Assembly (NCBI GenBank): GCA_016176845.1
Contig: JACOWJ010000006.1
Location: forward strand, 1-50,927
Length of the DNA: 50,927 bases
Origin: Nitrospinota bacterium
GTDB lineage: Bacteria; 2-12-FULL-45-22; JACOWJ01
Direction: 5' to 3'
Below, piece after piece: positions 916 to 40,851 of this stretch (its first letter is position 1; each line of letters opens with the position of its first letter). The position numbers were made by a program, and so were the translations under genes. The notes beneath the pieces were generated by a model, which worked only from the letters and a program-made list of their open reading frames with translations, did not search any database and was not told where the DNA came from.

Positions 916-2094
916 ATGTCCAAAATGGTTCCACCCCATGGGGGAGCACTGAAGTCGCTCAAGCTGGAGGGGGCGGCCCTCGCACAGGCGAGGGAGAGGG
1001 CGAGGTCGTTGAAATCGATCCGGATGACGACGCGTGAGCGAGACGACCTGATCATGATGGGAATCGGCGCCTTCAGCCCGTTGCGTGGGTTCATGGGGAG
1101 GGAGGACTGGAAGGGGGTCTGCGAGGAGATGCGGATGGCCGATGGGACTTTTTGGCCCATCCCCATTACCCTATCTACCGATCAAGAGGGAGCCGACCGC
1201 CTCCGGGAAAGGGAAGAGGTCGCCCTGGTGGACGGGGAGACCGGGGAGATCATGGGCAGCCTGGTGGTGGAGGAGAAGTACACCATCGACAAGGGCTACG
1301 AATGCCAGGAGGTCTTCAAGACGGAAGATCCTGCCCATCCCGGCGTGAAGAAGGTCATGGCGCAGGCTGGGGTGAACTTGAGCGGGCCAGTGCAGGTTTT
1401 TAGCGAGGGGGAATATGCCGTCAAGTTCTCTGGAATCTATGCCACCCCCGCCGAGACCCGCGCCATTTTCGAGGAGAAGGGCTGGCGCACCGTGGCGGCC
1501 CTCCAGCTGCGAAATCCGATGCACCGATCCCACGAGTACCTGGCCAAGATCGCCCTCGAGGTGTTGGATGGCCTCTTCATCCATCAGCTGTTGGGGGCTC
1601 TCAAGCCGGGGGACATCCCCGCCAAGGTTCGCGTTCGTTGCATCGATGTGCTGGTGGAGCATTACTTTCCCAAGGAGCGGGTCGTCCAGAAGGGCTATCC
1701 CCTCGAGATGCGCTACGCCGGCCCCCGGGAGGCTCTGCTGCATGCCTGTTTTCGCCAAAATTATGGGGCCAGCCACCTGATCGTGGGCCGAGATCACGCC
1801 GGCGTGGGGAACTATTACGGGCCCTTCGAGGCACAGGAGATCTTCGACCAGCTCCCCGAGGGCGCCCTGGCCATTCGACCCCTCAAGATCGACTGGACAT
1901 TCCATTGTTACCAATGCGAGGGGATGGCCTCCTGGAAGACCTGTCCCCATGGCCCGGAGGAACACCTGAATGTGAGCGGGACGGAGCTGAGGAAGATTCT
2001 CTCGGAGGGGAAGAGGCCAGCCCGCGAGTTCAGCCGGCCCGAGGTCCTGGAGATCCTGGCCGAATATTATCGGGGCCTGGGGGGGAAGAGATGA
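916..2094 (+). CDS. sat: Sulfate adenylyltransferase (ATP sulfurylase)
   Basis: Catalyses ATP + sulfate = APS + pyrophosphate, the activation step of dissimilatory sulfate reduction (or its reverse in sulfur oxidation), in the cytoplasm. The 392-residue length fits the monofunctional bacterial/archaeal type. Signature motifs are present: [11 protein letters not shown] near residue 196 (nucleotide-binding QxRNPxHxxH) and GRDHAGVG near residue 290. A CYQCEG...CPHG cluster near residues 337-350 resembles the zinc-binding cysteines of this enzyme class. An AAAGGAGG ribosome site at 903-910 supports the ATG at 916. The stop overlaps the start of qmoA (ATGA), so sat and qmoABC are translationally coupled. 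The usual aprBA genes between sat and qmoA are missing here. Confidence 0.95.
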
Positions 2095-3416
2095 GGATCC
2101 TGGTCGTGGGCGGGGGGATCAGCGGGATCACCGCGGCGGTAGAGGTGGCGGAAGTAGGCCATGAGGTCACGCTGATCGAGAAGAATCCCTACCTGGGCGG
2201 AATGGTTGCCCGGATGAACCGTTACTTTCCCAAGCTCTGTCCCCCGAGCTGTGGGCTGGAGATCAATTTCAAGCGGATCCAACGCAATAAGAGGATCCGC
2301 GTTTACACCCTGGCGGAGGTGGAAAGGATCTCGGGCCGGGCAGGCGACCTGGAGCAGATCCGAAAACCTTCCCAAAACCCTCCCCTGGCCGAAAAGATAG
2401 AGGATAAAGGGGGATTTCCGGATCGACCGTTAGATGTCACGATCCGGCTGAATCCCCGGCATGTGAACGAGAAATGCACCGCCTGCGGCCAATGCGCGGA
2501 GGCCTGTTCACTGGAGATTCCCAACGAGCTCAACTATGGGATGGACAAGATTAAAGCGGCCTACCTGCCCCATGAGATGGCCTTCCCGATGAGGTACGTC
2601 CTGGACCCCCGGATCCTCGGGACCGACGATGCCCACAGATGCGCCCAGGCCTGCGCGTACCAGGCCATCGACCTCAGCATGCAGCCCAAGAGGCTGGAGA
2701 TCCAGGTTGACTCCATCGTCTGGGCCACGGGCTGGCAGCCTTACGATGCCACCAGGCTGGACAACCTGGGGTTTGGCAGGTACCCAAACGTCATCACCAA
2801 TGTGATGATGGAGCGGCTGGCCGCCCCCAACGGGCCCACGGGCGGGAGGATCGCGCGCCCATCCGACGGGAAAGCTGCCCTGAGCGTGGCCTTCGTCCAG
2901 TGCGCCGGATCGAGGGACACGAACCACCTGCCCTACTGCTCGGCGGTCTGCTGTCTGGCCTCCTTGAAGCAGACCACGTATCTCCGCGAACAAAACCCGG
3001 ATTCCCGGGTCCGGATCTTTTACATCGATGTCCGCGCGCCCGGCCGGTTGGAGGAGTTTTACGCGAAGGTAAAAAACGACGAGAAGGTCAAGCTCACCAA
3101 GGGGAAAGTCGCCCGGATCACCGAGGATCCGGCGACCCGGGACCCCGTCGTAGAGGCGGAGGACATCGTGTCCGGCGAGCGGGTCCGGGTGAGGGTGGAT
3201 CTGGCCGTCCTGGCGACGGGGATGGCTCCAACGCCCCTGAAATCGCAGATGCCCATGGAGGTGCGTTGCGATGAAAATGGGTTTATCGCCTCCGATCTTT
3301 CCGAGACGGGGATTTATCCCGTCGGATGCGTCAGGCGGCCCTCGGATGTCGCTTCATCCGTTCGAGAGGCCACCGCAGCGGCGCTCAAGGCGATTCAATC
3401 GGGAGCGAGGAAATAA
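2091..3416 (+). CDS. qmoA: Quinone-interacting oxidoreductase complex subunit QmoA
   Basis: HdrA-like flavoprotein of the Qmo complex, which passes electrons between the quinone pool and APS reductase at the inner face of the membrane. The 441-residue product starts with a FAD Rossmann motif (VGGGISG, residues 6-12). It carries a [11 protein letters not shown] cluster-binding motif near residue 129 and the HdrA-type segment FVQCAGSRD followed by CSAVCC near residues 270-290. The C-terminal [20 protein letters not shown] is typical of the HdrA FAD domain. ATG at 2091 overlaps the sat stop, and its own TAA overlaps the qmoB ATG (TAATG), giving tight coupling. A single HdrA-like protein of this size followed by a larger HdrA/MvhD fusion and a cytochrome-b/FeS protein distinguishes Qmo from true heterodisulfide reductase. 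Confidence 0.92.
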
Positions 3417-5818
3417 TGCCAGACCATAAGATCGGAGTTTTCCTCTGTACGGGTTGCGGCATTGGGGACTCCCTGGAAGGGGAGAAATTTTCGCGGATTG
3501 TCACCGGCAGATATAAGATCCCTCTCTTTCATTCCCATCCCTGCCTCTGCAGCGAGGAGGGAATCCAGCACATTCGAGGAGAACTGGAGGAGAAAGGCCT
3601 TCAGGGCCTGGTCGTCGCCGCCTGCTCCCCCCGGGCACACGCCGATCTCTTCGATTTCGGCCCTTCCATCCCCGTGGAACGGGTCAACCTGAGGGAGCAG
3701 GGGGTTTGGACCCATCCCCCCCAGGACGAAGACACGCAGATGCTGGCCGAGGACAACCTGAGGATGGGGATCGTCCGGGCCCAAAAGACCCAGCCTCCCG
3801 CACCCTATCTCCCCGAGGGCGTGGAAAGGAGCCTGCTGGTCGTGGGCGGCGGGATCGCCGGGATGACGGCCGCCCGGGAGGCGGCCCGGGCGGGCTATGA
3901 GGTGCTCCTGGTGGAGAGAGAGGCCTCCCTGGGCGGGCAGATGGCCCGGCTTCACCGGCAATTCCCCAAACACCCCCCCTACCGTGACCCGGAGGAGCCC
4001 GGCATCGAAGCGCTGATCCAAAAGATCCAGGGAGATCCCCAAATTCGAGTGTACACCTCCTCGGAGATCGAAAAGATCTCCGGCTCGCCGGGGATGTTCG
4101 AGGTCACGCTAAAATGCGTGGCTTCCGCGATCGGCATGCCCCCTCGGCCCCCTGAAGTGGAGGAGCGGAGGAGCGAGGGAGCGGGGGAGCGGGGGAGCGG
4201 AGGAAAGGAAGTGGTTCTCCCCATCTCTCCAGCACCCCTGCCCCCCAGCACCCCTGCCCAATTCCGCGTGGGGGCCATCGTCCTGGCTACGGGCTGGAGG
4301 CCTTACGATGCGACCCGGCTCGAGCCCCTGGGGTTTGGCCGATACCCCAACGTCGTGACCAGCCTCCAGATGGAAGAGATGGCCTTCCAGGGCAATGTCG
4401 CACGCCCTTCCGAGGGGAAGAAGGTTAGAAGCGTGGCTTTCGTCCAGTGCGCGGGCTCCAGGGACGCGAACCATCTCCCTTACTGCTCGGCCGCCTGTTG
4501 CATGACATCGCTTAAACAGGCGATCTACCTTCGGGAAAGGGACCCGGAAACGAAGGTCTACCTTTTCTATCAAGACATGCGAACGCCGGGGCCATACGAA
4601 AATTTTTACCAACGGGTACAGGAGGACCCAGGGATCTTCTTTGCCCAAGGGGACGTGCTCGATATTCGAGAGGACGGAGAGAAGAATCTCCTCGTCGAGG
4701 TGGACCATGCCCTGTTCGGGGAGAGGATCCAGGTAAAGGTGGACCTGGTGGTCCTGGCGACCGGGATGGTCCCGACCACCCTGGACGATTCCGCCTTCGG
4801 GAATGGGCCCCAGCCATCCGGCCCGGTCTCGGGGACCGGAGAAGACGCCAGCTCCCGGTCAACCTCGCACAAGGGAGAGTCCTCAGGATCACCCAGTCCT
4901 GCGGAAAATCCTCGTCCCAAGATCCTCCATCTGGACTACCGGCAGGGGCCGGAGCTCCCCATTCTCGGCTATGGGTTTCCGGACTCCAACTACCTCTGTT
5001 TCCCCTACGAGACCCAACGGACGGGGATCTACGCGGCCGGATGCGTCCGCCAGCCCATGGATAGCGCGGCCAGCATGGAGGATGGTATGGGGGCGGCCCT
5101 GAAGGCCATCCAGTGCATCGAGCTCACCGCCCGGGGAGAGGCGGCGCACCCCCGAGCGGGCGATCGCTCATACCCGGAGCTGTTCATGCACCGCTGCACC
5201 CAGTGCAAGCGATGCACCGAGGAATGTCCCTTCGGGATGTACAACGAGGACGGAAAGTACAACCCGCTCCCCAACCCGACCCGCTGCCGAAGATGCGGGA
5301 TCTGCATGGGCTCCTGCCCGGAGCGGATCATCTCCTTTAAGGATTACTCGGTGGATATGATCGGCTCCATGATCAAGGCGATCGAGGTGCCTGAGGAAGA
5401 GGAGGAGAAGCCGAGGATCTTGGCCCTCGTTTGCGAGAACGACGCCTACCCCGCCCTCGACATGGCGGGAATCCGCCGCCTGAGATATACCCCCTTTGTG
5501 CGGTTCATTCCCCTGAGATGCCTGGGATCGTTGAACCTGGTGTGGATCGCCGATGCCCTGGCGAAGGGCATCGATGGGGTCCTCCTGCTGGGGTGCAAGC
5601 ATGGCGAGGACTCCCAGTGCCACTTCATCAAGGGAAGCGAGCTGGCCGAGTATCGACTGGGGAAGGTCCAGGAGACCCTCCAGCGGCTGGTGCTCGGGCC
5701 GGAGCGGATCCGGTTCGTCCAGGTCTCCATCGCAGATTATCCCCAGCTGCCCGGGATCATTGACGAGTTCGCCGAGAAGATCAACGCGATCGGCCCCAAC
5801 CCTTACAAAGGCTTGTAA
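3416..5818 (+). CDS. qmoB: Quinone-interacting oxidoreductase complex subunit QmoB
   Basis: The larger HdrA-like flavoprotein of Qmo, fused to an MvhD-like domain; 800 residues. Seen in order: an N-terminal Cys-containing region (FLCTGCGIG), FAD motif VGGGIAGM near residue 143, FVQCAGSRD and CSAACC as in QmoA, two [4Fe-4S] motifs (CTQCKRCTEECP and CRRCGICMGSCP, residues about 594-640), and a C-terminal MvhD-type domain (about 665-800) with CLGS and GCKHGEDSQC. ATG at 3416 overlaps the qmoA stop. Two low-complexity inserts look foreign to the family: residues about 248-281 are encoded by a GC-rich array of GGGGAGC-like units, and residues about 459-502 form a Ser/Pro/Gly-rich stretch. Both keep the frame, so the protein is probably functional. 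Confidence 0.92.
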   Translation: MPDHKIGVFLCTGCGIGDSLEGEKFSRIVTGRYKIPLFHSHPCLCSEEGIQHIRGELEEKGLQGLVVAACSPRAHADLFDFGPSIPVERVNLREQGVWTHPPQDEDTQMLAEDNLRMGIVRAQKTQPPAPYLPEGVERSLLVVGGGIAGMTAAREAARAGYEVLLVEREASLGGQMARLHRQFPKHPPYRDPEEPGIEALIQKIQGDPQIRVYTSSEIEKISGSPGMFEVTLKCVASAIGMPPRPPEVEERRSEGAGERGSGGKEVVLPISPAPLPPSTPAQFRVGAIVLATGWRPYDATRLEPLGFGRYPNVVTSLQMEEMAFQGNVARPSEGKKVRSVAFVQCAGSRDANHLPYCSAACCMTSLKQAIYLRERDPETKVYLFYQDMRTPGPYENFYQRVQEDPGIFFAQGDVLDIREDGEKNLLVEVDHALFGERIQVKVDLVVLATGMVPTTLDDSAFGNGPQPSGPVSGTGEDASSRSTSHKGESSGSPSPAENPRPKILHLDYRQGPELPILGYGFPDSNYLCFPYETQRTGIYAAGCVRQPMDSAASMEDGMGAALKAIQCIELTARGEAAHPRAGDRSYPELFMHRCTQCKRCTEECPFGMYNEDGKYNPLPNPTRCRRCGICMGSCPERIISFKDYSVDMIGSMIKAIEVPEEEEEKPRILALVCENDAYPALDMAGIRRLRYTPFVRFIPLRCLGSLNLVWIADALAKGIDGVLLLGCKHGEDSQCHFIKGSELAEYRLGKVQETLQRLVLGPERIRFVQVSIADYPQLPGIIDEFAEKINAIGPNPYKGL
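4159..4203 (+). repeat. In-frame GGGGAGC-type short tandem array inside qmoB
   Basis: A purine-rich tandem array built from GAGCGG/GGGGAGC-like units of 7-8 bp lies within the qmoB reading frame. It is followed by a second short direct repeat of CCAGCACCCCTGCC at about 4231-4258. Together they encode a Glu/Gly/Ser- then Pro-rich loop. The unit length matches the heptad arrays found between genes elsewhere in this window. Confidence 0.65.
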
Positions 5819-5823
5819 AACAA

Positions 5824-5897
5824 GCTAAGTTTTAAGTTTTAGGTGTTAAGTTTTAGGTTTTTTGCTTAACACTTAAAACCTGAAACTTAAAACTTTC
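5824..5897 (+). repeat. TAAGTTT heptad array folded as an inverted repeat between qmoB and qmoC
   Basis: The left arm repeats TAAGTTT/TAGGTTT with a 7-bp period; the right arm (from about 5866) carries the complement, AACACTTAAAACC then AACTTAAAACTT. The short TTTTTTGC segment forms the loop. The hairpin could act as an RNA processing or attenuation signal between qmoB and qmoC. It is the same class as the arrays at 32.0 and 46.1 kb. Confidence 0.85.
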
Positions 5898-5928
5898 CCG
5901 TAAATCCTGTCTAAAAAGGGACCTGGAA

Positions 5929-7086
5929 ATGGCAGAGGCATACCTGGTGGAACCAGACCTGAAGTTTGTCCAACAGCTCATGGATCTGGGGGGTGGATCC
6001 CTGAAGAAGTGCTATCAGTGCGCGACCTGCTCGGTCGTGTGCAACTCCTCCCCGGACGCCCGGCCCTTTCCCCGCAAGGAGATGATCTGGGCCCAGTGGG
6101 GATTGAAGGATCGGTTGGTTAAAGATCCAGATGTCTGGCTCTGTCACCAGTGCAACGACTGCTCGGTCCGATGCCCCCGGGGTGCCCGGCCCGGCGACGT
6201 CCTGGCGGCAGTGAGAAATTACAGCTTCCTGCACTACGCCTTCCCGAGCTTTATGGGAAAGGCGGTGAGCGAGGTCAGGTATCTACCCCTCCTCTTCGCT
6301 CTTCCGATCCTCCTCCTGTTGGCCCTCCTCTCCCTGACCGGGAATCCGGCGGCCCTCGGAGGTGCCATTGTCTTCGAGGAGCTCATCCCACACGCTTACC
6401 TCGACGCCGGTTTTATCACACTGGGCCTCCTTTCCTTGGGCTCGATTGCGGTCGGAGCCCGCCGGTTCTGGAAAGACCTCCTCGAGAATTCGGCCTCGCA
6501 TGCCGCCGGATGCCTGGGGGATGGGGAGAAGGAGGCGCCCCGGACCGATCCCGGCAGCGAGGGATTCTCTCGTCACCTCCTTTCCGCCTTGAGCGAGATC
6601 TTGAGGCACAGCAAATTCAAGGATTGCGAGGCGAACCCGATCAGATATTACGCCCACCTGGCGATCTTCTACGGGTTCATGGGGCTTTTCCTCACCACCA
6701 CCCTCGTCTTCCTAGGCATCGTCCTGGGGGGGATCCGTCCGCCCTTGGCCCCTTTCAGTGCAGTGAAGGTATTGGGAAACCTGAGCGCATTGGCGGTCTT
6801 TGGGGGCCTCACGGTCGTCATTTATCAAAGAATCACACAAAAAGAGCAGATAGGTCGTAGCTCTTACTATGACTGGTTCTTTATCGGGTCGCTTTATGCC
6901 ATCACCATCACCGGGATCCTGACGGAGGGGGCCCGGATGGCGCGGATGGCCATGATGGCCTATCCCCTTTATGCGATCCACTTAATCTTCGTCTTCGTTC
7001 TCCTGGCCTGCCTTCCCTATTCCAAGTTCGCTCACCTGTTTTACCGGTCTGTAGCCATGGTCTATGCGAAATATTCGGGGAGGTAA
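5929..7086 (+). CDS. qmoC: Quinone-interacting oxidoreductase complex subunit QmoC
   Basis: Membrane subunit of Qmo, expected to oxidise menaquinol and deliver electrons to QmoAB and APS reductase. The N-terminal half is HdrC-like with two cluster motifs, CYQCATCSVVC (residues 28-38) and CHQCNDCSVRCP (about 72-83). The C-terminal half has about six hydrophobic helices of a cytochrome-b/NarI-like domain, with histidines in YYAHLAIF and YAIHLIF as candidate haem ligands. Length 385 is normal for QmoC. It follows qmoB after a 110-bp gap filled by a hairpin repeat, so expression may be partly uncoupled from sat-qmoAB. Confidence 0.92.
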   Translation: MAEAYLVEPDLKFVQQLMDLGGGSLKKCYQCATCSVVCNSSPDARPFPRKEMIWAQWGLKDRLVKDPDVWLCHQCNDCSVRCPRGARPGDVLAAVRNYSFLHYAFPSFMGKAVSEVRYLPLLFALPILLLLALLSLTGNPAALGGAIVFEELIPHAYLDAGFITLGLLSLGSIAVGARRFWKDLLENSASHAAGCLGDGEKEAPRTDPGSEGFSRHLLSALSEILRHSKFKDCEANPIRYYAHLAIFYGFMGLFLTTTLVFLGIVLGGIRPPLAPFSAVKVLGNLSALAVFGGLTVVIYQRITQKEQIGRSSYYDWFFIGSLYAITITGILTEGARMARMAMMAYPLYAIHLIFVFVLLACLPYSKFAHLFYRSVAMVYAKYSGR

Positions 7087-7148: not shown

Positions 7149-7277
7149 GTTAGGGGCTAGGGATTAGGGATTAGGGATTAGGGATTAGGGATTAGGGATT
7201 AGGGGCTAGTAAGAAAGAAGAGCTTTCGCTGATCCCTAGCCCCTAGCCCCTAGAAATGGAAATTCCTATACGATCAA
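7149..7277 (+). repeat. AGGGATT/AGGGGCT heptad foldback element with AAATTCCTATA tag
   Basis: The left arm (7150-7210) is a run of GATTAGG units with a 7-bp period bounded by GGCTAG. The loop contains AAGAAAGAAGAG. The right arm (7231-7253) is the complement, CCCTAGCCCCTAGCCCCTAG. It is followed by AAATGGAAATTCCTATACGA. The gap 7087-7335 holds this element and, before it, a short GGCTGATCC direct repeat; I see no gene there. Confidence 0.9.
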
Positions 7278-7542: not shown

Positions 7543-7619
7543 GGGCGAGTAGCTCAGGTGGATAGAGCGTTGGTCTCCGGAACCAAAGGCCGTGGGTTCG
7601 AGTCCCGCCTCGCCCACCA
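7543..7619 (+). tRNA. tRNA-Arg (anticodon CCG)
   Basis: A complete 77-nt cloverleaf is readable: acceptor GGGCGAG pairing with CTCGCCC (7609-7615), discriminator A and an encoded CCA at 7617-7619. The D arm has GCTC...GAGC, the anticodon stem is TTGGT/ACCAA with loop CTCCGGA, and the T arm has loop TTCGAGT. Anticodon CCG reads the CGG arginine codon, frequent in these GC-rich genes. A promoter-like sequence lies upstream and a terminator directly downstream, so it is a stand-alone transcript. Confidence 0.96.
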
Positions 7620-7659: not shown

Positions 7660-7761
7660 ATTTCCGAAAAAAGATGAAATTCTTGGGGGATAAATAGAGG
7701 ACATTATCGCGAATAAAACCTCACAATGAATGTCATTTCGAAGGAGCAAAAGGGGGTGCCT

Positions 7762-8457
7762 ATGAGAACAAAAAGACGTTGGTTATTCCTTCCGGTCTTT
7801 CTCACGCTGGTCTTGTCCATGGGGCGGTGGGCTGCCGCCGAGGAGTGGTCGATCGCCGGCCACTACGCCGAGGCCTGCAGCTGCGATGCGGCCTGCCCTT
7901 GCGTTTACGGCTCCCCACCCACGATGGGCCACTGTCACGAGGCCCTGGCCTTTGACATCACCAAGGGAAAGTATGGCCAGACCAACCTCTCCGGCCTGAA
8001 GTTTGTCTCCACCATGGAGATGGGCAAGGGAACCTGGATCGCCTACTACCTGGACGAGAAGAGCACCCCGGACCAGCGGCAGGCCCTGGAGTCGATCTTC
8101 AAGAAGCTGCTGGGAGGATTCGCCAAGGAGGACCTTGGAGCCAAGGCCGTCCGCATCTCCATGGCCTCCGAGGATAAGGGCAAGGCCCGGGCGGTGGCTA
8201 TCCCGAATGTCCTGAAGTTCCGGGTCGAGAAGCCCGCCGGCCTGGATGGGGAGAGCCCGGTGGTGATCGCCAACCCTGGCCGACACTTTATCCCCATGCT
8301 GACCGTGGCCCGCTCGACCCAGGACGAATTCAGCGACCACGGGAAGAACTGGTCCTACAAGGACAAGAGCGGCTTTCATGGGGAATTCTCCTTCTCCAGC
8401 AGCCAGCCGGAGCAGACGAGAAGTGACTGGCAAATCGGCATACCCAAGCTGCCATGA
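7762..8457 (+). CDS. DUF1326 domain protein, exported (first copy)
   Basis: Predicted exported protein of 231 residues. The start MRTKRRW at 7762 is preferred over an upstream in-frame ATG at 7726 because it follows a GGAG/AGGGGG ribosome site and opens a clean signal peptide (cleavage near WAAA-EE). The DUF1326 domain begins with the Cys-rich motif EACSCDAACPC followed by a Cys at MGHC (residues about 37-58) and ends with GFHGEFSFSSS. DUF1326 has no established function to my knowledge; the clustered cysteines suggest metal or cofactor binding. It leads a cassette with a gluconate-dehydrogenase-like subunit, a GMC flavoprotein and a second DUF1326 protein. The stop lies inside a GAGCGAT tandem repeat. 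Confidence 0.85.
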   Translation: MRTKRRWLFLPVFLTLVLSMGRWAAAEEWSIAGHYAEACSCDAACPCVYGSPPTMGHCHEALAFDITKGKYGQTNLSGLKFVSTMEMGKGTWIAYYLDEKSTPDQRQALESIFKKLLGGFAKEDLGAKAVRISMASEDKGKARAVAIPNVLKFRVEKPAGLDGESPVVIANPGRHFIPMLTVARSTQDEFSDHGKNWSYKDKSGFHGEFSFSSSQPEQTRSDWQIGIPKLP

Positions 8458-8485
8458 GCGATGAGCGATCTTAGAGGGGAAATCG

Positions 8486-9034
8486 ATGAGAGAGCTAACC
8501 AAAAGAGAGTTCCTGGAGTTGAGTTTGAAGGGAGCGCTGATCTTGACGGCGGGCGGACTGGTGGACCTGCCGCGTCCCTCAGGGGCCCAGTCCATTCCGC
8601 CTTACCTCTCCCCCTCCGAACGGGGGGCCCTACGGGCCATGGCTGCTCGCCTGATTCCCCAGGATAGCGACCCAGGGTTCCTGGAGTTGGAGCTGGGGAG
8701 CCTGATGGAGACGATGATGCGGGTGACTCCCGAGACGAGGCCCCTGGTCCCCTTGGGCCTCAAGGGGCTGGACGAGTCCGCTCGGGCAATGTTTCACAAG
8801 GAATTCGTGGGCCTTGCCCCGGCTCAGCAGGACGAGATCCTGCGGGCCCTGGAGGGGGGGACGGCCTCGGGGGAGGCCTGGAAGGCCCTGCCCAGCTCGC
8901 GCTTTTTCCGGCTGGTGCGGATGTTCACCGTGGGGCTCTACTACTCCCATTCCACGGCACGGCGGATGATCGCTTACCCCGGACCGGGCCAGCCTCACGG
9001 CTACCCCGATTACGCGGACCTGAACTGGAGTTAG
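8486..9034 (+). CDS. Gluconate 2-dehydrogenase subunit 3 family protein
   Basis: 182 residues, resembling the small subunit 3 of membrane gluconate/sugar dehydrogenases, thought to help export or mature the GMC flavoprotein subunit. The N terminus (LTKREFLELSLKGALILTAGG) looks like a degenerate Tat signal with KR in place of RR, followed by a hydrophobic stretch. The body contains LSPSERGALRAMAARLIPQD and the C-terminal GLYYSHSTARRMIAYPGPGQPHGYPDY, typical of the family. The gene ends 21 bp before the GMC gene, the standard order. No cytochrome c subunit, the usual third partner, is found nearby. Confidence 0.8.
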   Translation: MRELTKREFLELSLKGALILTAGGLVDLPRPSGAQSIPPYLSPSERGALRAMAARLIPQDSDPGFLELELGSLMETMMRVTPETRPLVPLGLKGLDESARAMFHKEFVGLAPAQQDEILRALEGGTASGEAWKALPSSRFFRLVRMFTVGLYYSHSTARRMIAYPGPGQPHGYPDYADLNWS

Positions 9035-9055
9035 CTCATTCAAGGAGAAGACGCG

Positions 9056-10597
9056 ATGGCTGAAAAGGTCTACGACGTCCTGATCGTGGGGACGGGGGCG
9101 GCCGGCGGGGTGCTGGCCAAACAGCTGGCCGAGGGAGGCCTGTCGGTCCTGATCCTGGAGGGGGGCGGCCGCCTCGATCCCAAGACCGACTTCCGCAACG
9201 ACGAGCTCTTCATGGGCAAGCTCCACGGCTGGCCCTGGCCCATCGAGGGCCCCTGGGCCCCCATCACTTCCTATGGCCTGGGGGGCTCCATGCTCCATTA
9301 TGCAGGCTGGTCGGTTCGCTTCCACCCCAGCGACTTCCGGACCCGCAGTCGCGATGGGGTGGGGGATGACTGGCCCATGGAATGGAAGGATCTGGAGCCT
9401 TACTACCAAAAGGTGGAGGAGATGATCGGCGTGGCGGGCGCCAATGATAACCCCTTCGAGCCTCCCAAAGAGCCCTATCCCCTGCCTGCGCACAAACTCA
9501 ACCGCAATGCCCAGGTCGTTCGCCTGGGCGCCCAGAAGCTGGGCCTGAAGCTCCTCACGGCCCCGCTGGCCATCAACTCCATGCCCTACGATGGCCGCCC
9601 CCCTTGCAGCTACTGCGGCTTTTGCACCAACGGGTGCATGACCGGGGCCAAGGGGGAGTCGCTTGTCAGTTACATCCCCAAGGCTCTGGACAAAGGGGCC
9701 GAGCTGCGCCTCCAGGCCTTCGTCACCCGGGTGAACCTCGACAACGACGGCAAGGCCTCCGGGGTGTCCTACATCGATCAGCGGACCGGCCAGGAGGCCG
9801 AGGCCCGGGCCAAAGCGGTGGTGCTCGCGGCCAACGGCATCCAGAACCCCCGGCTCCTGCTCCACTCCACCTCGAACCGTTTTCCCCAGGGGTTGGCCAA
9901 CTCGAGCGGCCTGGTGGGCAAGTACCTGACCATCCACCTCAACCCGGGCGCCTGGGGGACCTTCGAGCGGCCGATTCAGTTCTACAAGGGGACTCAAGTG
10001 GGGGCCATGATCCAGGACTTCTACGAGACCGACCCTAAACGGGGCTTCGCCCGGGGCTACATCCTGGTAGCGGCCGGCTTTGGCCCCGTGGGGATGGCAA
10101 CCATCTCGGGCCTATGGGGAGAGGAGCTCAAGGGGCTCATGCGCCATTACGACCACGTAGCCGGATTTTGGAGCATGGGAGAGGACTTGCCCCAGGAGGG
10201 CAACGGCGTAACCCTGGATCCCCAACAGAAGGATGAGTTCGGGGTCCCCTTCCCCCGGATCACCTATCGTCATTCGGAGAACGACCTGGCTATGCGCCGC
10301 CACTTCCACCAGAAGGCCCGAGAGATCCTAGAGGCCGCCGGGGCCAGGAAGGTTTACGTAGATAAGAGCCAACAGGTTGCCATCCATTTCATCGGGACCA
10401 CCCGGATGGGCAAGGACCCCAAGAGCTCCGTGGTCAACTCCTTCGGCCAGGCCCACGAGGTCAAGAACCTCTTCCTGGCCGGCAGCAGCATTTTCGTCAC
10501 TTCCGCGCCGGCCCCGCCGACGCTGACCATCCAGGCCCTGTCCGCCCGAACGGCCGACTACATCCTGTCGGAGGGAAAGAAAGGGAACCTGGGATAG
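9056..10597 (+). CDS. GMC-family flavoprotein oxidoreductase (gluconate-dehydrogenase type)
   Basis: 513-residue FAD-dependent oxidoreductase related to the large subunit of gluconate/fructose/sorbitol dehydrogenases. The FAD-binding GTGAAGG motif is at residues 12-18, a Cys cluster CSYCGFCTNGC near residue 183 and the conserved HFIGTTRMG segment near residue 443. The C-terminal segment reads APAPPTLTIQALSARTADY, where relatives usually have NPTLTI; the Asn/His expected as the second active-site residue seems replaced by Pro, which may alter chemistry. No signal peptide is seen, consistent with export via the subunit 3 partner. Substrate unknown. RBS AAGGAG at 9041-9046 supports the start. 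Confidence 0.85.
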   Translation: MAEKVYDVLIVGTGAAGGVLAKQLAEGGLSVLILEGGGRLDPKTDFRNDELFMGKLHGWPWPIEGPWAPITSYGLGGSMLHYAGWSVRFHPSDFRTRSRDGVGDDWPMEWKDLEPYYQKVEEMIGVAGANDNPFEPPKEPYPLPAHKLNRNAQVVRLGAQKLGLKLLTAPLAINSMPYDGRPPCSYCGFCTNGCMTGAKGESLVSYIPKALDKGAELRLQAFVTRVNLDNDGKASGVSYIDQRTGQEAEARAKAVVLAANGIQNPRLLLHSTSNRFPQGLANSSGLVGKYLTIHLNPGAWGTFERPIQFYKGTQVGAMIQDFYETDPKRGFARGYILVAAGFGPVGMATISGLWGEELKGLMRHYDHVAGFWSMGEDLPQEGNGVTLDPQQKDEFGVPFPRITYRHSENDLAMRRHFHQKAREILEAAGARKVYVDKSQQVAIHFIGTTRMGKDPKSSVVNSFGQAHEVKNLFLAGSSIFVTSAPAPPTLTIQALSARTADYILSEGKKGNLG

Positions 10598-10613
10598 AAC
10601 CGGCGGGGCGATA

Positions 10614-10707
10614 AATTAGGGGACAGGGTACAGGGAACAGGGGACAGGGATGGGCTATCAGAGAAATGATGGCCCCTCCAAAAAGGAAATTCCTATATGA
10701 TCAAGTT
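10614..10707 (+). repeat. ACAGGGG heptad array with AAATTCCTATA tag
   Basis: AAATTAGGGGACAGGG followed by imperfect 7-bp repeats of ACAGGGG, then a small GGGC/GCCC stem and the tag AAGGAAATTCCTATATGATC. Same architecture as the element at 7149 but with a different unit sequence. Confidence 0.85.
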
Positions 10708-10752
10708 AGCTCATAAAAAATTAAGCTCCAGGCTCTCAGGAGAATTAGACCC

Positions 10753-11679
10753 ATGAGAAATCACCTTGCCTTTTGCCGTTTGTCTTCGTCCTCGGAGCAG
10801 CGAGGAGCGATCCGTCCGGTCCCCTTGATCCTGCTGATCCTGCTGGGCGCTGCCCTGGCAGGATGGGTGGGAGGGAATCCTTTGGGGGCAGGGCCCCTCC
10901 AGGGGCAGGCCCCTGGCGCCCTCTGCGAGATCCATCCCTTGGAGAAGGGAGAAGGGCAGGGGAGGGAACCCCTAAGGGGAAAGCCTTCTGCTCCCATCTC
11001 GCAACAAGAGGGGGCGGGCTGCCACTGGATGGTGGCGAGCGCAGAATCTACTCCCCATTCTCACCCTTCCGCCCAGGGATCTTCCTCGGCTCCACCCCCC
11101 GAATGGGAGGTCCTGGGACATTACGCCGAGGCCTGCAACTGTGAGGTGGGCTGCCCCTGTATTTACAAGTCCCCGGCCTCCCATGGGGAGTGTGAGGCCA
11201 CGTTGGCCTTCTCCATCACCAAGGGCCACTTGGGGGCCGTGGGTCTGTCGGGGCTCAATACGGTCGTGGTGGCGGAGGCTGCCAAGGGAGGGTTCGTTTC
11301 CTACTACCTGGACGACCGGGCCACCCCTCAGCAGCGGGAGGCCCTGGCCGGAATCTTTCGTGGGATTTTCGGGATCCTCTCCAAGAACGACCTGGGAATG
11401 AAGATCGTCCCCATCCGGATGGACGCCTCGAGCCAGGACTCCACCCGGCGGACCCGAGGGGTAACCATCCCGGACGTCCTGCTGCTAGAGGTGGAGAAGG
11501 TAATCGGCCTGGACGGGCAAGGGCCTACCGTGGTCCAGAATCCCGTCCACTCCATCAACGAGCTGCTGGTAGCCAAATCGAAGATCTATCGGTTCAAGGA
11601 CCATGGCAAGTCCTGGGAGTATACCGGCCGGAGCGGGTTCCACGGGGAGTTCTTCTTCTCCAGCCTTTACTTCAAGTAG
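10753..11679 (+). CDS. DUF1326 domain protein, exported (second copy, long linker)
   Basis: 308 residues. The C-terminal 190 residues are a paralogue of the first DUF1326 protein, with the same motif layout (HYAEACNCEVGCPC, later GEC, and GFHGEFFFSS at the end). The N terminus differs: a hydrophobic segment near residues 23-42 (signal or anchor) is followed by about 70 residues of Gly/Pro/Ser-rich linker before the domain starts near residue 122. The linker DNA is GC-rich and repetitive, so repeat expansion is possible. Identity between the two copies is moderate, so the duplication is not recent. It closes the DUF1326/GMC cassette. Confidence 0.82.
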   Translation: MRNHLAFCRLSSSSEQRGAIRPVPLILLILLGAALAGWVGGNPLGAGPLQGQAPGALCEIHPLEKGEGQGREPLRGKPSAPISQQEGAGCHWMVASAESTPHSHPSAQGSSSAPPPEWEVLGHYAEACNCEVGCPCIYKSPASHGECEATLAFSITKGHLGAVGLSGLNTVVVAEAAKGGFVSYYLDDRATPQQREALAGIFRGIFGILSKNDLGMKIVPIRMDASSQDSTRRTRGVTIPDVLLLEVEKVIGLDGQGPTVVQNPVHSINELLVAKSKIYRFKDHGKSWEYTGRSGFHGEFFFSSLYFK

Positions 11680-13613: not shown

Positions 13614-14765
13614 ATGGTGTTATTATTGAGAGATATCCTGTACGAGATCGCGAGGGTCTTCAACGATACGGCGGTCTATATCCTGTTTGGATTTCTAATC
13701 GCGGGACTGCTCAAATTCGTGCTCTCCCCCGAACGGATCCGAAAGTACATGGGCCAACGAGACACCCGATCCGTCCTGTATGCCTCCCTGTTGGGCATCC
13801 CTTTGCCCCTTTGCTCCTGCGGGGTCCTGCCCACGGCCCTCTCCCTGAAGAAGGAGGGGGCTGCCAGGGGCTCTACGGTCTCCTTCCTCATTTCTACGCC
13901 GGAGACGGGGATGGATTCCATCTCGGTCACGTATGGCCTGATGGACCCTCTGATGGCCGCCTTCCGCCCGCTGGCGGCCTTCTCCACCGCGATCACGGCG
14001 GGCATCCTGTCCAATGTCCTGGACGGGAAACCGGAGGTCGAGGAACACCCCCACGCGGACTGTAGTTGCCATGCCATGCCGATCAACTCCAGCAACGGCC
14101 AAGGGCATCAAGGACCCGGACCGAACGGCCAGCCGATCTGCTGTCCCGCCTGTGCCCGCCCGGATTTGAGCCTGAAGGAGAAGACGAAATTGCTCTTCCG
14201 TTACTCTTTCCAGGAGTTGGTCGATGAGATCGCCGGCTGGCTGATGGCCAGCCTATGGATTGCCGGCCTGATCTCGGCCCTGATCCCCGACGCCTTCGTT
14301 CGAGAATACCTGGGCAGCGGGATGGGCTCGATGCTCATCATGGCGGCGGTGGGAGCGCCCCTGTACATGTGCGCCACCTCGTCCACCCCGATCGCCGCCG
14401 CGCTGGTTCTGAAAGGTCTCAACCCGGGGGCCGCCCTGGTCTTCCTGCTGACGGGGCCAGCCACCAATGCCGGCGCTCTGGCGATGATCGCCCGGTTCCT
14501 GGGGGGAAGGACGGCCGCCATCTACTTAGGCAGCATCATCCTGATGAGCCTGTTTTTCGGGCTGCTGATCAACCAGGTTTACGCCTTCCTGGGATGGAAT
14601 CCCATGGCGACCATGGGTCAGGCCACGGAATGGTTGCCCGGGCCCGTAAAGCTGGCAAGCTCGTTCGTTCTGGCACTCTTGCTCTTGGGAAGCCTGAGGC
14701 GGACGGGAGGGCGGAGCTTCTGGAGGGCTTATAGGAGAGTGGTATGGCGAAAAGGTCGGCGCTAG
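13614..14765 (+). CDS. SO_0444/ArsP-like permease, putative Cu/Zn transporter
   Basis: 383-residue inner-membrane permease of the DUF318/ArsP_1 group, close to the SO_0444-type proteins annotated as Cu/Zn efflux. Two homologous membrane halves carry the family signatures: GIPLPLCSCGVLPTALSLKKEGAARG (split here around residues 62-87) and PLYMCATSSTPIAAALVLKG near residue 252. The central loop (about 140-185) is His/Cys-rich with HPHADCSCH and ICCPACARP, a likely metal-binding hinge. It overlaps znuA by 22 bp and so is co-transcribed with a zinc importer, an unexpected pairing for an exporter. Direction of transport and metal cannot be told from sequence. Confidence 0.82.
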   Translation: MVLLLRDILYEIARVFNDTAVYILFGFLIAGLLKFVLSPERIRKYMGQRDTRSVLYASLLGIPLPLCSCGVLPTALSLKKEGAARGSTVSFLISTPETGMDSISVTYGLMDPLMAAFRPLAAFSTAITAGILSNVLDGKPEVEEHPHADCSCHAMPINSSNGQGHQGPGPNGQPICCPACARPDLSLKEKTKLLFRYSFQELVDEIAGWLMASLWIAGLISALIPDAFVREYLGSGMGSMLIMAAVGAPLYMCATSSTPIAAALVLKGLNPGAALVFLLTGPATNAGALAMIARFLGGRTAAIYLGSIILMSLFFGLLINQVYAFLGWNPMATMGQATEWLPGPVKLASSFVLALLLLGSLRRTGGRSFWRAYRRVVWRKGRR

Positions 14766-15697
14766 TCCTGGCGCCTTTCCTGTGCTGGCTCCTCTGTACG
14801 ATGGCCGTCCAGGAGGCGGGGGCTGGAAGGCCAGGCTCTATCGGGGGAAGCGCGGGTGCGGACGGCGGGAGGGCGCGGCTGGTTGTGGTCGCCAGCATCT
14901 TCCCCCTGGCCGACCTGGTCAGGCAGATCGGAGGAGAGCAGGTGGAAGTGGAGACGCTGCTCCCCCCGGGGGCCAGCCCTCACACCTTCGAGCCCACACC
15001 CCGTCAGGTCCAAAGGTTTTCCCGGGCCCAGGTCTTCGCCCGGATCGGGGCCGGCCTGGAGCTTTGGGCAGAGAAGCTGTTGGGAAGCCGGAAGCCGAGC
15101 CCTCGGGTCATGACCGCCGCGGAGGGGATCCCGTTATTCAAGGGCACCGAGGGAGTCGATCCGCACCAGAGCTTCGGCGATCCCCATATCTGGCTGGATC
15201 CGGTCCTGGTCCGCACCGCGATCCTGCCCCGTATCGTGGAAACGCTGGGGGCAGCCGCCCCCCAGCACGTGGCGACCTTTCGGGAGCGCGCCCGTCGCTA
15301 CTCCGTCGAGCTGGAGCAACTGGACCGGCAGATCCGAGAACGGGTCTCTCATTGGCAGGGACGGAAATTCATCGTCTTCCATTCCGCGTGGCGCTATTTT
15401 GGCAGGCGCTATGGCCTCCAACAGATATCGGCCATCGTGGAGTCCCCCGGCAAGGAGCCCTCGGCCAGGGATATTGCCCATTTGGTGGATGTGGCCCGAG
15501 CTCATGGCGTTCACGTCATCTTTTGCGAACCGCAATTTAACCCCAAGCCGGCCCAGGTGATTGCCCAGGAGATGAAAGGCAGGGTCCTCACCCTGGACCC
15601 CTTGGGAGGAGAAGGGCTGCCGGGACGGAATACGTACATTGGCCTGATGAATTATAACCTGAGAGCCTTGGAAGCAGGGCTGAAGGTCTCAGGGTAA
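14744..15697 (+). CDS. znuA: Zinc ABC transporter substrate-binding protein
   Basis: Periplasmic metal-binding protein that captures Zn(II) (or Mn(II)) for ZnuBC; 317 residues with an N-terminal signal peptide (cleavage near AVQEAGA). The cluster A-I metal ligands are readable: His in GASPHTFEPTP, His in FGDPHIWLDP, His in FHSAWRYF and an acidic residue in TLDPLGG. The His-rich flexible loop of many ZnuA proteins is reduced to a short DPHQSFGDPH segment. The start overlaps the permease gene by 22 bp. ZnuC and ZnuB follow directly. Confidence 0.88.
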   Translation: MAKRSALVLAPFLCWLLCTMAVQEAGAGRPGSIGGSAGADGGRARLVVVASIFPLADLVRQIGGEQVEVETLLPPGASPHTFEPTPRQVQRFSRAQVFARIGAGLELWAEKLLGSRKPSPRVMTAAEGIPLFKGTEGVDPHQSFGDPHIWLDPVLVRTAILPRIVETLGAAAPQHVATFRERARRYSVELEQLDRQIRERVSHWQGRKFIVFHSAWRYFGRRYGLQQISAIVESPGKEPSARDIAHLVDVARAHGVHVIFCEPQFNPKPAQVIAQEMKGRVLTLDPLGGEGLPGRNTYIGLMNYNLRALEAGLKVSG

Positions 15698-15711
15698 CGA
15701 AGGAGATCCCC

Positions 15712-16491
15712 CTGAAAGGGAACGCTTATCCCCTTAACAACCGCCCCGTGGTGGAACTGCGGGATGTCTGGGTCTCCCTCCATAGGAGATCCGTATTGGA
15801 GGGCATCAGTTTTTCCGTGGGCGAAGGGAAGTTCGTCGGGGTCATCGGTCCCAACGGGGCCGGCAAGACCTCCCTGCTGAAGGCGGTCCTGGGGCTGATT
15901 AAGCCGGACCGGGGGGAGGTCTTCGTCTTCGGGACCCCTCCGTCAGGGCTGGGGAAGAAGGCCCATCATATCGGCTACGTCCCGCAGAAGAGCCGCTTTG
16001 ACCCCCGTTTCCCCATCTCGGTATACGATGTGGTCATGATGGGAAGGGTCTGCTGCATTGGGCTGTTCCGATTCCCCGGGAAAAGGGATCGGGAGCTGGT
16101 GGCAGAAAGCCTCAAGCGGGTCGGGCTGGAAGGCTACGAGCACCGGCCCATCGGAGAGCTCTCGGGTGGAGAGCAGCAGCGGGCCTTCCTGGCCAGGGCC
16201 CTATGCAGCCAGACCCGGCTGCTGATCCTGGACGAGCCTACCACCGCCCTGGACATGCCGGCCCGACAGGAGTTCTATCGACTGCTGAAAGAGCTAAAAG
16301 ATGAAATGGGGCTCACGGTGATCATGGTCTGCCACGATCTGCAATCCCTGGCCGTCCATTCGGATGAGCTGATCTGTATCAACCGCACCATGCACCTGCA
16401 CGGCCGTCCCCAGGAGGTCTTGAAGAGCACCCACCTGCTGGAGGCCTATCATTGCGAGTTCGATTTCCTGTCGCAGGTGAAGGAGTGCTAA
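15712..16491 (+). CDS. znuC: Zinc ABC transporter ATP-binding protein, probable CTG start
   Basis: ATPase of the Znu importer. Walker A is GPNGAGKTS, the signature is LSGGEQQRAFLARAL and Walker B is LLILDEPTTALD. The first conventional start in frame is GTG at 15748 (MVELRDVW), which has no ribosome site. A strong AAGGAG at 15700-15705 instead sits 6 nt before an in-frame CTG at 15712, giving MKGNAYPLNNRPVVELRDVW, so CTG initiation is likely. With that start the protein is about 259 residues. It lies 14 bp after znuA. Confidence 0.88.
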   Translation: MKGNAYPLNNRPVVELRDVWVSLHRRSVLEGISFSVGEGKFVGVIGPNGAGKTSLLKAVLGLIKPDRGEVFVFGTPPSGLGKKAHHIGYVPQKSRFDPRFPISVYDVVMMGRVCCIGLFRFPGKRDRELVAESLKRVGLEGYEHRPIGELSGGEQQRAFLARALCSQTRLLILDEPTTALDMPARQEFYRLLKELKDEMGLTVIMVCHDLQSLAVHSDELICINRTMHLHGRPQEVLKSTHLLEAYHCEFDFLSQVKEC

Positions 16492-16547
16492 AAACGAGCT
16501 CGAAGCCTTTCGTACTCCTAAACTTTGAGCGATGAGCGATGAGCTAA

Positions 16548-17384
16548 ATGATGGAAATCCTCTCTTACGACTTCATGCAACGGGCCCTGATGGCGGGAAT
16601 CATGGTGAGCCTCCTGTGCTCCTTCATCGCCTTCTTTGTGATCCTGAGGCGGCTGGCCTTCATCGGCGTGGGGATCTCTCATTCGGCCTTCGGAGGCGTT
16701 GCTATGGGGGTGGTGATGGGCATCAATCCCATCTTCACGGCGGCCCTTTTCTCCATCCTGGTCGCCTGGCTGATCGGGGTGGTCAGTAAAAAGGGGCAGA
16801 TCCACGAGGATGCTGCCATCGGCATCTTCTTCTCGGCGGCCATGGCCCTGGGGGTGGCCTTGATCAGCCTTTCCCACAGTTACAACATCGACCTCTTCGG
16901 CTACCTCTTCGGGAATATCCTCTCGGTCAGCGTGGAAGACCTGTGGACCGTGGGGATCCTGGGGGCTATCACCCTCCTGACGCTGATCCTCTTCTTCAAG
17001 GAGCTGCTTTTCATCAGCTTCGATGAAGAGGTGGCGCGGGTGAGCGGCCTCCCCGTCGAGCTCCTCAACTACCTGCTGTTGATCCTGATGGCACTGACCA
17101 TTGTGGTCTCCATCAAGGTGGTAGGCCTGGTCCTGGCCTCTGCCCTGCTGGTGATCCCCGCGGCCACCGGCTACCAGCTGGCCCGGAACTACCGGCTCAT
17201 GCTGGCCATCTCTCTGCTGTGCGGGGTCTCCTCTTCGATTCTGGGCCTGTGGCTCTCCTACCAATATGACCTCGCCTCGGGGGCCACCATCGTCCTCTGC
17301 TCCACGCTCTTCTTCTTCCTCTCCATGATCTTCTCTCCCCGTCAGAAGTTGATCGGCCGGCTGATCCGATCGCGGCTCGGTTGA
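16548..17384 (+). CDS. znuB: Zinc ABC transporter permease
   Basis: ABC-3 family integral membrane permease of the Znu/Mnt type, 278 residues with about eight hydrophobic helices. The family segment RRLAFIGVGISHSAFGGVAMG is present near residues 34-54 (read in two parts) and KVVGLVLASALLVIPAATGYQLA near 190-212. It receives metal from ZnuA and couples to ZnuC. The 56-bp gap after znuC carries GAGCGAT repeated in tandem. ATG 16548 and ATG 16551 are both possible starts. Confidence 0.88.
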   Translation: MMEILSYDFMQRALMAGIMVSLLCSFIAFFVILRRLAFIGVGISHSAFGGVAMGVVMGINPIFTAALFSILVAWLIGVVSKKGQIHEDAAIGIFFSAAMALGVALISLSHSYNIDLFGYLFGNILSVSVEDLWTVGILGAITLLTLILFFKELLFISFDEEVARVSGLPVELLNYLLLILMALTIVVSIKVVGLVLASALLVIPAATGYQLARNYRLMLAISLLCGVSSSILGLWLSYQYDLASGATIVLCSTLFFFLSMIFSPRQKLIGRLIRSRLG

Positions 17385-34326: not shown

Positions 34327-34403
34327 CCAGGGATTAGGGAAAACTCTTCTTCACGAGCCCCTAATCCCTGATCCCTAATTCGACCCTATAGGAATTTCTT
34401 TTT
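34327..34403 (-). repeat. AGGGATT heptad foldback with AAATTCCTATA tag, minus orientation
   Basis: Read on the minus strand: AAGAAATTCCTATAGGG tag first, then TTAGGGATCAGGGATTAGG, loop GTGAAGAAGAG and CCCTAATCCCTGG. The loop matches that of the element at 43634. It is followed at 34418-34480 by C-run/G-run stems and a CAAGGGGGGGTAATT direct repeat. Confidence 0.82.
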
Positions 34404-39583: not shown

Positions 39584-39765
39584 GCTACCGGCTTATCATC
39601 CTGCGAAAGAAACGGCCCTATTTTCCCCCAATTCTCGGGCGAGGTCAAGCTGGTTGTTGGAGAAAAAAGTATTGACGCATGGAGGTCCGCTGTAATACAA
39701 TAATCAAATCTCTTTTGAAGTTTTTTGAATTTCTATCCGGGAAGAAACGGTTCGGAAGGTCCCTG

Positions 39766-40851
39766 ATGAATTATGGGCGAAAGCTCGATCCCCGTCCGCT
39801 TCGGGCCGATGTGACAGTTACCGAGCTCGTTGATGATTTCCTCCTGGCATACAACGCCGCGCGCCTGCGGGAGGCCTGTCACCTGCTGGTCCAGAAGATG
39901 CTGCGGCCGGAAGTGACGGTCGGGCTAACGCTATCGGGGGCGTTGACGCCAGCCGGCTTGGGTTACGCCGCGGTTGTGCCCCTCATCGAGTCGGGGTTCA
40001 TCGACTGGATCGTCTCCACGGGTGCCAACCTCTACCATGACCTCCACCGATCGCTTGGCTTCGAGTTATACCAGACGAACCCGTTCGTTGACGACGTGGC
40101 CTTGCGCGAGCAGAAGATTATCCGCATCTACGATATCGTTTTCCACCAGGACGTCCTGCTCAAGTCCGACGCCTTCCTCTATCGCGTCCTCTCGGCGGAT
40201 GAATTTCAGCAGCGGATGGGCACTGCGGAGCTCCACTACCGGCTCGGGAGGTATGTGGCCGAGCGCGAGCAGTTGCTGGGCGGTCGGTATCGCTCCATCC
40301 TGTCCGCCGCCTATAAGGCCGCGGTTCCTGTTTATACCTCCAGTCCAGGCGACAGCACCATCGGCATGAACATCGCGGCACTGCGGATGGTCGGGTGCAA
40401 GTTGGCGATCGACGTAGAGTTGGATGTCAATGAGACCACGGCGATCGTTTACCACGCCAAGACCACCGGCGGCCGGAGTGGTCTGCTCATCTTCGGGGGC
40501 GGTAGCCCCAAGAACTTCGCCTTGCAGACGGAGCCCCAGATCCAGGAGGTCTTGGGCCTTGACGAAAAGGGGCACGATTACTTCATTCAGGTGACCGATG
40601 CGCGGCCCGATACGGGCGGCTTGTCCGGCGCCACCCCATCGGAGGCCATAACCTGGGGAAAGGTCGATCCCGAACAACTGCCCGACACGATCGCCTGTTA
40701 TCTGGACAGCACGGTGGCCATGCCCATCATCACGGCTTACGCCCTGGCGCGTGCCGAGCCGCGCCCCCATAAGCGACTGTACGAGCGCCGGGCGGAGATG
40801 CTGGAGGCACTGAGCCGGAGCTATAAAGGAAAGATCTTAGATAAATCGTGA
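39766..40851 (+). CDS. Deoxyhypusine-synthase-like protein
   Basis: About 361 residues, NAD-dependent deoxyhypusine synthase family. Bacteria lack eIF5A, and bacterial members are thought to act in polyamine metabolism such as homospermidine synthesis. Family blocks: LTLSGALTPAGLG, WIVSTGANLYHDLHRSLG, YTSSPGDSTIGMN and GGGSPKNFALQTEP, where Lys of GGGSPKN aligns with the active-site lysine, so catalysis is probably retained. I start at ATG 39766 (MNYGRKLDPRPL), 6 nt after GGAAGG; an upstream ATG at 39679 would add 29 residues without family character. It is followed by a 29-codon remnant and an epimerase gene. Confidence 0.8.
   Translation: MNYGRKLDPRPLRADVTVTELVDDFLLAYNAARLREACHLLVQKMLRPEVTVGLTLSGALTPAGLGYAAVVPLIESGFIDWIVSTGANLYHDLHRSLGFELYQTNPFVDDVALREQKIIRIYDIVFHQDVLLKSDAFLYRVLSADEFQQRMGTAELHYRLGRYVAEREQLLGGRYRSILSAAYKAAVPVYTSSPGDSTIGMNIAALRMVGCKLAIDVELDVNETTAIVYHAKTTGGRSGLLIFGGGSPKNFALQTEPQIQEVLGLDEKGHDYFIQVTDARPDTGGLSGATPSEAITWGKVDPEQLPDTIACYLDSTVAMPIITAYALARAEPRPHKRLYERRAEMLEALSRSYKGKILDKS

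Follow-up and report, generated by a model that had tools for sequence, protein, structure and literature searches.

A gamma-alpha flavin dehydrogenase gene pair with its own Fe-S motif between two predicted exported DUF1326 paralogues in a Nitrospinota bacterium

The locus and its surroundings

The cassette described here lies in a stretch of 50,927 nucleotides (contig JACOWJ010000006.1, hereafter the window) from the genome of a Nitrospinota bacterium, of which 68% is represented in the assembly. It is composed of four genes, all on the plus strand (Table 1): a DUF1326 gene (DUF1326-A), the gene of a gamma subunit (subunit 3), the gene of a GMC flavoprotein (the alpha subunit) and a second DUF1326 gene (DUF1326-B). 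All four open reading frames were confirmed with the boundaries assigned in an earlier interpretation of the same DNA, made from its letters only (the sequence-only reading), and the gaps between them are 28, 21 and 155 bp. For DUF1326-A, the start at 7762 is favoured over an in-frame ATG at 7726 because of a GGGGG upstream of the former. A tRNA-Arg gene (7543-7619) is found directly upstream of the cassette, whose G+C content, overall and at third positions, agrees with that of most of its neighbours.

The longest of the three gaps contains a copy of an interspersed element, AAAAATGGAAATTCCTATACGATnAAATTA, of which 114 kb of the genome contain 17 copies, each with at most two mismatches. In the window, copies lie at 7253, 10680 and 43710 on the plus strand and at 34388 on the minus strand; others are found in the stretches L049, L265, L266, L268 and L269. 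The copies are apparently intergenic, often a short way ahead of a gene, and the element looks like a promoter or a small mobile repeat. Because of the copy ahead of it, DUF1326-B probably has its own promoter and a separate transcript. DUF1326-A, in turn, may be co-transcribed with subunit 3 and the GMC gene.

Table 1. Coordinates of the genes, motifs and residues of the cassette in the window.
Feature	Position	Strand	Details
DUF1326-A	7762..8457	+	231 aa; PF07040 1.4e-28
DUF1326-A cysteine motif CSCDAACPCVYGSPPTMGHC, candidate metal site	7876..7935	+	conserved columns
Subunit 3, gluconate 2-dehydrogenase subunit 3-type gamma (hitchhiker)	8486..9034	+	182 aa; PF13618 1.9e-21
GMC flavoprotein, FAD-GDH/FDH alpha-subunit type	9056..10597	+	513 aa; PF05199 6.3e-22, PF00732 1.4e-18
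GMC Fe-S motif CSYCGFCTNGC, Cys184/187/190/194	9605..9637	+	alignment, 44-homologue comparison
Catalytic His444 QVAIHFIGTTRMG, equivalent to BcGDH His476	10385..10387	+	alignments
Pro487 (codon CCG) at second catalytic residue, BcGDH Asn519	10514..10516	+	alignments
Interspersed element copy AAAAAGGAAATTCCTATATGATCAAG	10680..10709	+	73 bp 5' of DUF1326-B
DUF1326-B, predicted exported or anchored paralogue	10753..11679	+	308 aa; PF07040 2.1e-30

Other features of the window include a sulphate-reduction block directly upstream (916-7086), with ATP sulphurylase and QmoA-, QmoB- and QmoC-like genes; AprAB was not noticed among the open reading frames of the window. Further away, a deoxyhypusine synthase-like protein (PF01916, 9.6e-70) is encoded at 39679-40851, in this case in a bacterium.

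The gamma-alpha dehydrogenase

Dehydrogenases composed of gamma and alpha subunits and wired through an Fe-S cluster are employed in biosensors. The GMC protein of the window has both the N and C domains of its family and an adjoining gamma subunit. Its best solved relatives are fructose dehydrogenase (FDH; 8k6k/7w2j, 2.3e-66) and FAD glucose dehydrogenase (6a2u, 2.2e-64), and on sequence grounds it is grouped with the alpha subunits of these enzymes. In the glucose dehydrogenase of Burkholderia cepacia (BcGDH), Cys212, Cys218 and Cys222 are the ligands of a 3Fe-4S cluster, while Cys213 is disulphide-bonded to a Cys of the gamma subunit; in addition, His105 binds FAD covalently, and the catalytic pair is His476/Asn519 (PMC6719666). 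As in BcGDH (6a2u) and FDH (7w2j/8k6k), the alpha subunit of the window has cysteines clustered at the Fe-S position, a His of the covalent-FAD type (His81, with GGSMLH81 aligned with GGTTWH of FDH) and the catalytic His, and the gamma gene stands alongside.

Nevertheless, several differences separate it from these enzymes. The Fe-S motif lines up with the one that forms the 3Fe-4S site in FDH (CCGNNNCMPIC), and C184, C190 and C194 align with the three cluster ligands of BcGDH, but C187 is extra. In effect, all four cysteines sit in C-x2-C-x2-C-x3-C, a motif that the sequence-only reading had overlooked, so that there are four possible ligands instead of three and a gamma-bound Cys. This four-Cys form is found in many of 44 GMC homologues, and its ligands would fit a 4Fe-4S cluster. 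Subunit 3 is free of Cys and thus forms no disulphide with the alpha subunit. Its N-terminus reads as Tat-like, with KR rather than RR (TKREFLELSLKG). Further differences are that Pro487 replaces Asn519 and Ile443 replaces the sugar-binding Asn475, that a beta cytochrome gene is not adjacent and that DUF1326 genes are present on both sides. An AlphaFold model of the GMC protein with three relatives, built on a shallow alignment, reached a pLDDT of 37, too low to be of use.

The same genome has a second GMC/subunit-3 pair (contig C22, L049 7538-10342), which is also without an adjoining cytochrome gene and has a GMC protein 41% identical to that of the window. In contrast to the window pair, it keeps NPTLT at the active site, has no DUF1326 gene nearby and is surrounded by apparent acyl-CoA and aromatic-degradation enzyme genes.

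The sequence-only reading had described a gluconate-dehydrogenase-type pair bracketed by DUF1326 genes and lacking its cytochrome c, and this description is correct: the membrane tri-heme beta subunit is not in the operon, and a search of the non-overlapping open reading frames of 90 aa or more across the 51-kb window turned up no CxxCH protein. Gamma-alpha pairs without an adjoining cytochrome are, nevertheless, usual in relatives (for instance, L008-L010, L037, L038 and most of the GMC loci surveyed). In addition, three c-type cytochromes are encoded elsewhere in the genome: a tri-heme one that has an ethylbenzene-dehydrogenase-type domain, a mono-heme one, and one with eight CxxCH motifs, next to which are apparent cytochrome b and Rieske protein genes, seemingly of a bc-type complex. 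Consequently, the absence of a cytochrome from the cassette is no evidence of its replacement, and the argument that something must replace it was rejected. Since the GMC protein carries an Fe-S motif of its own, no substitute electron carrier is needed.

The His-Pro active site

The proline that the sequence-only reading had noticed in place of an active-site residue is real. Across 44 aligned GMC sequences, the position of Pro487 is occupied by Asn in 36, Pro in five, Gln in two and Asp in one. The other four Pro sequences belong to a clade that lost the His too, and thus the window protein, on a branch of its own in the tree, is the only one of the 44 to combine His with Pro. A sequencing slip was discarded as an explanation, as at least two base changes separate an Asn codon from CCG and the reading frame is intact.

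A related observation concerns a clade of GMC proteins (L078, L083, L085 and L086) that have an Fe-S-type Cys motif and Leu/Pro in place of His/Asn; from these residues, they are possibly non-oxidising GMC proteins.

As the mark of an odd active site, the proline finds no support. A His-Pro pair is present in pyridoxine 4-oxidase (PNOX), a working enzyme, and the second residue of the pair is thought to have a minor, substrate-orienting role (PMC8171062). By the same precedent, Pro487 was rejected as proof of a dead enzyme. PNOX (3t37, 4ha6) is a GMC enzyme, but its match to the window protein is weak (2.7e-9), far weaker than those of FDH and FAD-GDH. To our knowledge, it lacks both a gamma subunit and an Fe-S cluster. 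As His444 is kept and Pro487 has this precedent, the enzyme, which lacks the substrate-binding Asn residues of the sugar dehydrogenases (P487, I443), is probably active, as far as its residues indicate, with an alcohol that is neither glucose nor fructose.

The DUF1326 proteins

Both DUF1326 proteins match PF07040 well above its gathering cut-off of 25 bits, with scores of 100.7 (A) and 106.6 (B). They are 50% identical across the domain and are each other's closest kin in both trees (support 98-100), so that a duplication within this lineage can be deduced. In the first tree, the pair lies inside the class linked to PpoB2 (see below), and in a larger one just outside it; both were built with FastTree, and their deep nodes are weakly supported.

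The sequence-only reading had described the two as exported paralogues with a common EAC(S/N)C...CPC motif. The paralogy and the motif are borne out, as EAC(S/N)C-x3-CPC is exact in both proteins and is followed by a fifth Cys, while export is a prediction. DUF1326-A begins with a clear Sec-type signal, MRTKRRWLFLPVFLTLVLSMGRWAAA, as read from its sequence, and its only five cysteines form C39-x-C41-x3-C45-x-C47-x10-C58. DUF1326-B has a hydrophobic N-terminus, then a low-complexity linker of about 70 residues; its motif is made of Cys128, 130, 134, 136 and 147, and three further cysteines are outside the domain. Among 23 diverse DUF1326 sequences, Cys39, Cys45 and Cys58 (A numbering) are invariant and Cys41 and Cys47 are conserved in at least 90%. 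The conservation of the cysteines, on which the sequence-only reading had staked its interpretation, was thus found. Together with the reality of the Asn-to-Pro change, it means that the earlier observation stands.

The motif is not uniform in the family. A side branch in the two sampled phyla has Gly for the fourth Cys (C-x-C-x3-CPGH), and a further set of exported members (G040, G317, G112 and others) is without any C-x-C-x3-C motif. By sequence or profile, no relative of DUF1326 was found among solved structures, and AlphaFold with DUF1326-A and its paralogue, a shallow alignment, gave a pLDDT of 32, likewise too low to be of use.

Some side observations can be added. The linker of DUF1326-B contains a low-complexity stretch rich in Pro, Ser and Gly (10880-11110), and a similar one is found in the QmoB-like gene (3326-5818), both within proteins that are conserved otherwise; no second copy of either was detected in the DNA of this genome that was searched (the window and further stretches). 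Three DUF1326 proteins elsewhere (L185, 4901-5581, plus strand; L186, 1892-2629, plus; L187, 4966-5592, minus) have Tat-like N-termini (MDRREF.., MKRRDF..), which suggests that they are exported folded and possibly metal-loaded. In another phylum (L014, 8839-10490), two tandem genes of exported DUF1326 proteins are followed by a flotillin/band-7 gene, an arrangement where duplicated exported DUF1326 recurs without GMC.

Genomic neighbours of DUF1326

DUF1326 was detected in 20 genomes of a broad sample of 386, including this one; in 64 of 346 genomes from the phylum of the nearest GMC match; in 58 of 208 genomes of a phylum sample centred on Acidobacteria; and in one of 82 more genomes. About 100 DUF1326 loci, together with as much as 6 kb of flanking DNA at either end, were searched with profiles for GMC, subunit 3, DUF1326 and PpoB2. 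The sequence-only reading had made its interpretation depend on a conserved neighbourhood. Such conservation was not observed, as only L172 and L174, of about 100 other DUF1326 loci, have a strong GMC match no further than 5-6 kb away. Both are from another phylum, and in each the GMC gene is on the same strand as DUF1326 and at most 1.2 kb from it; nevertheless, the GMC protein is of a different clade, the DUF1326 protein is of the non-exported kind with PpoB2 and the layout differs. At L172, subunit 3 was also detected, with a DUF4159 gene in between. The proximity of the two genes at these loci may be beyond chance, although it is not the arrangement of the window, which is unique among the roughly 100 DUF1326 loci and some 20 GMC loci. 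Additionally, a scan of contigs from 84,980 species with six GMC peptides returned only five relatives, at most 42% identical, and the three of them that bear subunit 3 (L008-L010) have no DUF1326 gene alongside. The adjacency of DUF1326 and GMC looks lineage-specific rather than the sign of a conserved new machine.

The recurring neighbour of the family is a different one. Non-exported DUF1326 proteins with the motif adjoin PpoB2/DUF2182 (PF09948, COG5486) in 61 of 70 cases (47 of 52 in the broad sample and the first phylum, 14 of 18 in the second phylum sample). By contrast, exported members, defined by a hydrophobic N-terminus and in some cases starting with a Tat-like MDRREF, were never found beside it (0/26, from 0/7 and 0/19). 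The loci of the two classes are among L050-L063, L148-L182 and L222-L260. Fisher tests of this difference give p values of 2e-6 and 5e-7; since the genes are related by descent, however, the effective number of events is small. The same adjacency is also observed in annotated plasmids and in a contig from a viral collection (L188). This division of exported and non-exported DUF1326 by their association with PpoB2 is new here, and a literature search returned no papers using the names DUF1326, DUF2182 or COG5588.

In Marinomonas mediterranea, tyrosinase receives copper from PpoB2, which was the first role assigned to the COG5486 group (PMC2855505). A metal role for DUF1326 is plausible because its recurring neighbour belongs to a family whose named member moves copper. 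Metal handling, with Cu(I) as the first guess, is therefore the best inference at the family level, by analogy with this partner. The window proteins share with the members paired with PpoB2 the family (PF07040) and the five-Cys motif, but they are exported, duplicated and without PpoB2, whereas the usual members are non-exported and have it alongside. Since the exported class is found without PpoB2, the copper argument extends to the window proteins by family only, and by this analogy they are probably binders of a soft metal, for example Cu(I). We know of no DUF1326 member with demonstrated metal binding. In this genome, as represented in the assembly (68% complete), there was no match to PF09948, while possible copper clients or handlers include a multicopper oxidase and SCO1/SenC. 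Further candidates of this kind are encoded in the window 2 kb downstream of the cassette, namely an SO_0444-family Cu/Zn efflux transporter and then ZnuA/ZnuC/ZnuB-like proteins (13614-17384).

Interpretation of the cassette

The explanation that we prefer, and to which we grant an even chance, is that the cassette encodes a Tat-exported, Fe-S-wired gamma-alpha flavin dehydrogenase and a separable exported pair of DUF1326 proteins that bind a soft metal. The gamma subunit would ferry the folded alpha subunit, with its FAD and Fe-S cluster, out via Tat. Once outside, His444 would take the proton from an alcohol-type substrate, which is not expected to be glucose or fructose, and FAD would accept the hydride. 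Electrons would then exit via the GMC protein's own surface cluster and reach cytochromes whose genes are in other parts of the genome. The DUF1326 proteins, exported via Sec, would bind a soft metal, most probably Cu(I), through CxCx3CxC-x10-C, and would serve as periplasmic metal carriers or buffers in the compartment of the dehydrogenase, not as its electron acceptor. Of this picture, what was observed directly is the gene content, the motifs and residue identities, the conservation of the DUF1326 cysteines, and the association of DUF1326 with PpoB2 and its lack in exported members; the route of export, the type of cluster, the metal, the path of the electrons and a putative functional link of the halves are inferred. 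Points against the explanation are the KR form of the gamma N-terminus and the lack of PpoB2 both in the exported class and in this genome as assembled.

A serious rival, although a somewhat unlikely one in our judgement, is that the halves are coincidental neighbours, that is, that the functions of the dehydrogenase and of the duplicated DUF1326 proteins are unconnected and their genes were joined by chance or by a local rearrangement. The uniqueness of the arrangement in the survey points in this direction, as do the separate upstream element of DUF1326-B and its 155-bp gap. Nevertheless, DUF1326-A, subunit 3 and GMC are operon-like (one strand, 28 and 21 bp apart), paralogues are found on both sides of the pair and the close same-strand genes at L172 and L174, in another phylum, also argue against mere chance.

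It is improbable that the DUF1326 proteins take the place of the cytochrome subunit and, via a copper or Fe-S centre, carry electrons in the periplasm for the GMC protein. The shared predicted compartment, the conserved Cys clusters of both proteins and the absence of a cytochrome gene nearby would agree with such a role, but a cluster motif is already present in the GMC protein, gamma-alpha pairs that lack a cytochrome are common where there is no DUF1326, cytochromes c are encoded in the genome, and DUF1326 is usually partnered by a membrane protein of the chaperone type instead of a dehydrogenase. The sequence-only reading had proposed electron or metal carriage in place of the cytochrome, and thus its metal part is plausible, given the PpoB2 neighbour, while its electron part is weakened by the Fe-S motif and by the cytochromes encoded elsewhere. 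Its observation is confirmed and its interpretation is partly supported. A broader reading, in which the exported pair are metal-centred partners, physical or redox, of the His-Pro Fe-S GMC protein in a periplasmic module and either replace its cytochrome or supply the metal required, is in our judgement likewise quite improbable. Finally, that the GMC protein oxidises or matures the DUF1326 proteins as its true substrates is very unlikely: adjacency and an active site without the Asn residues of sugar dehydrogenases could be read this way, but an enzyme of this kind is missing beside almost every other DUF1326 gene, and PNOX, a His-Pro oxidase of small molecules, accounts for the proline without a protein substrate.

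For the families involved, the cassette has two consequences. The GMC protein adds a His-Pro pair to the Fe-S-wired gamma-alpha dehydrogenases. In addition, DUF1326 is common yet has no assigned function, being present in about 5% of the genomes of the broad sample and in 18% and 28% of those of the two sampled phyla, and the survey gives it a specific, testable hypothesis of metal handling.
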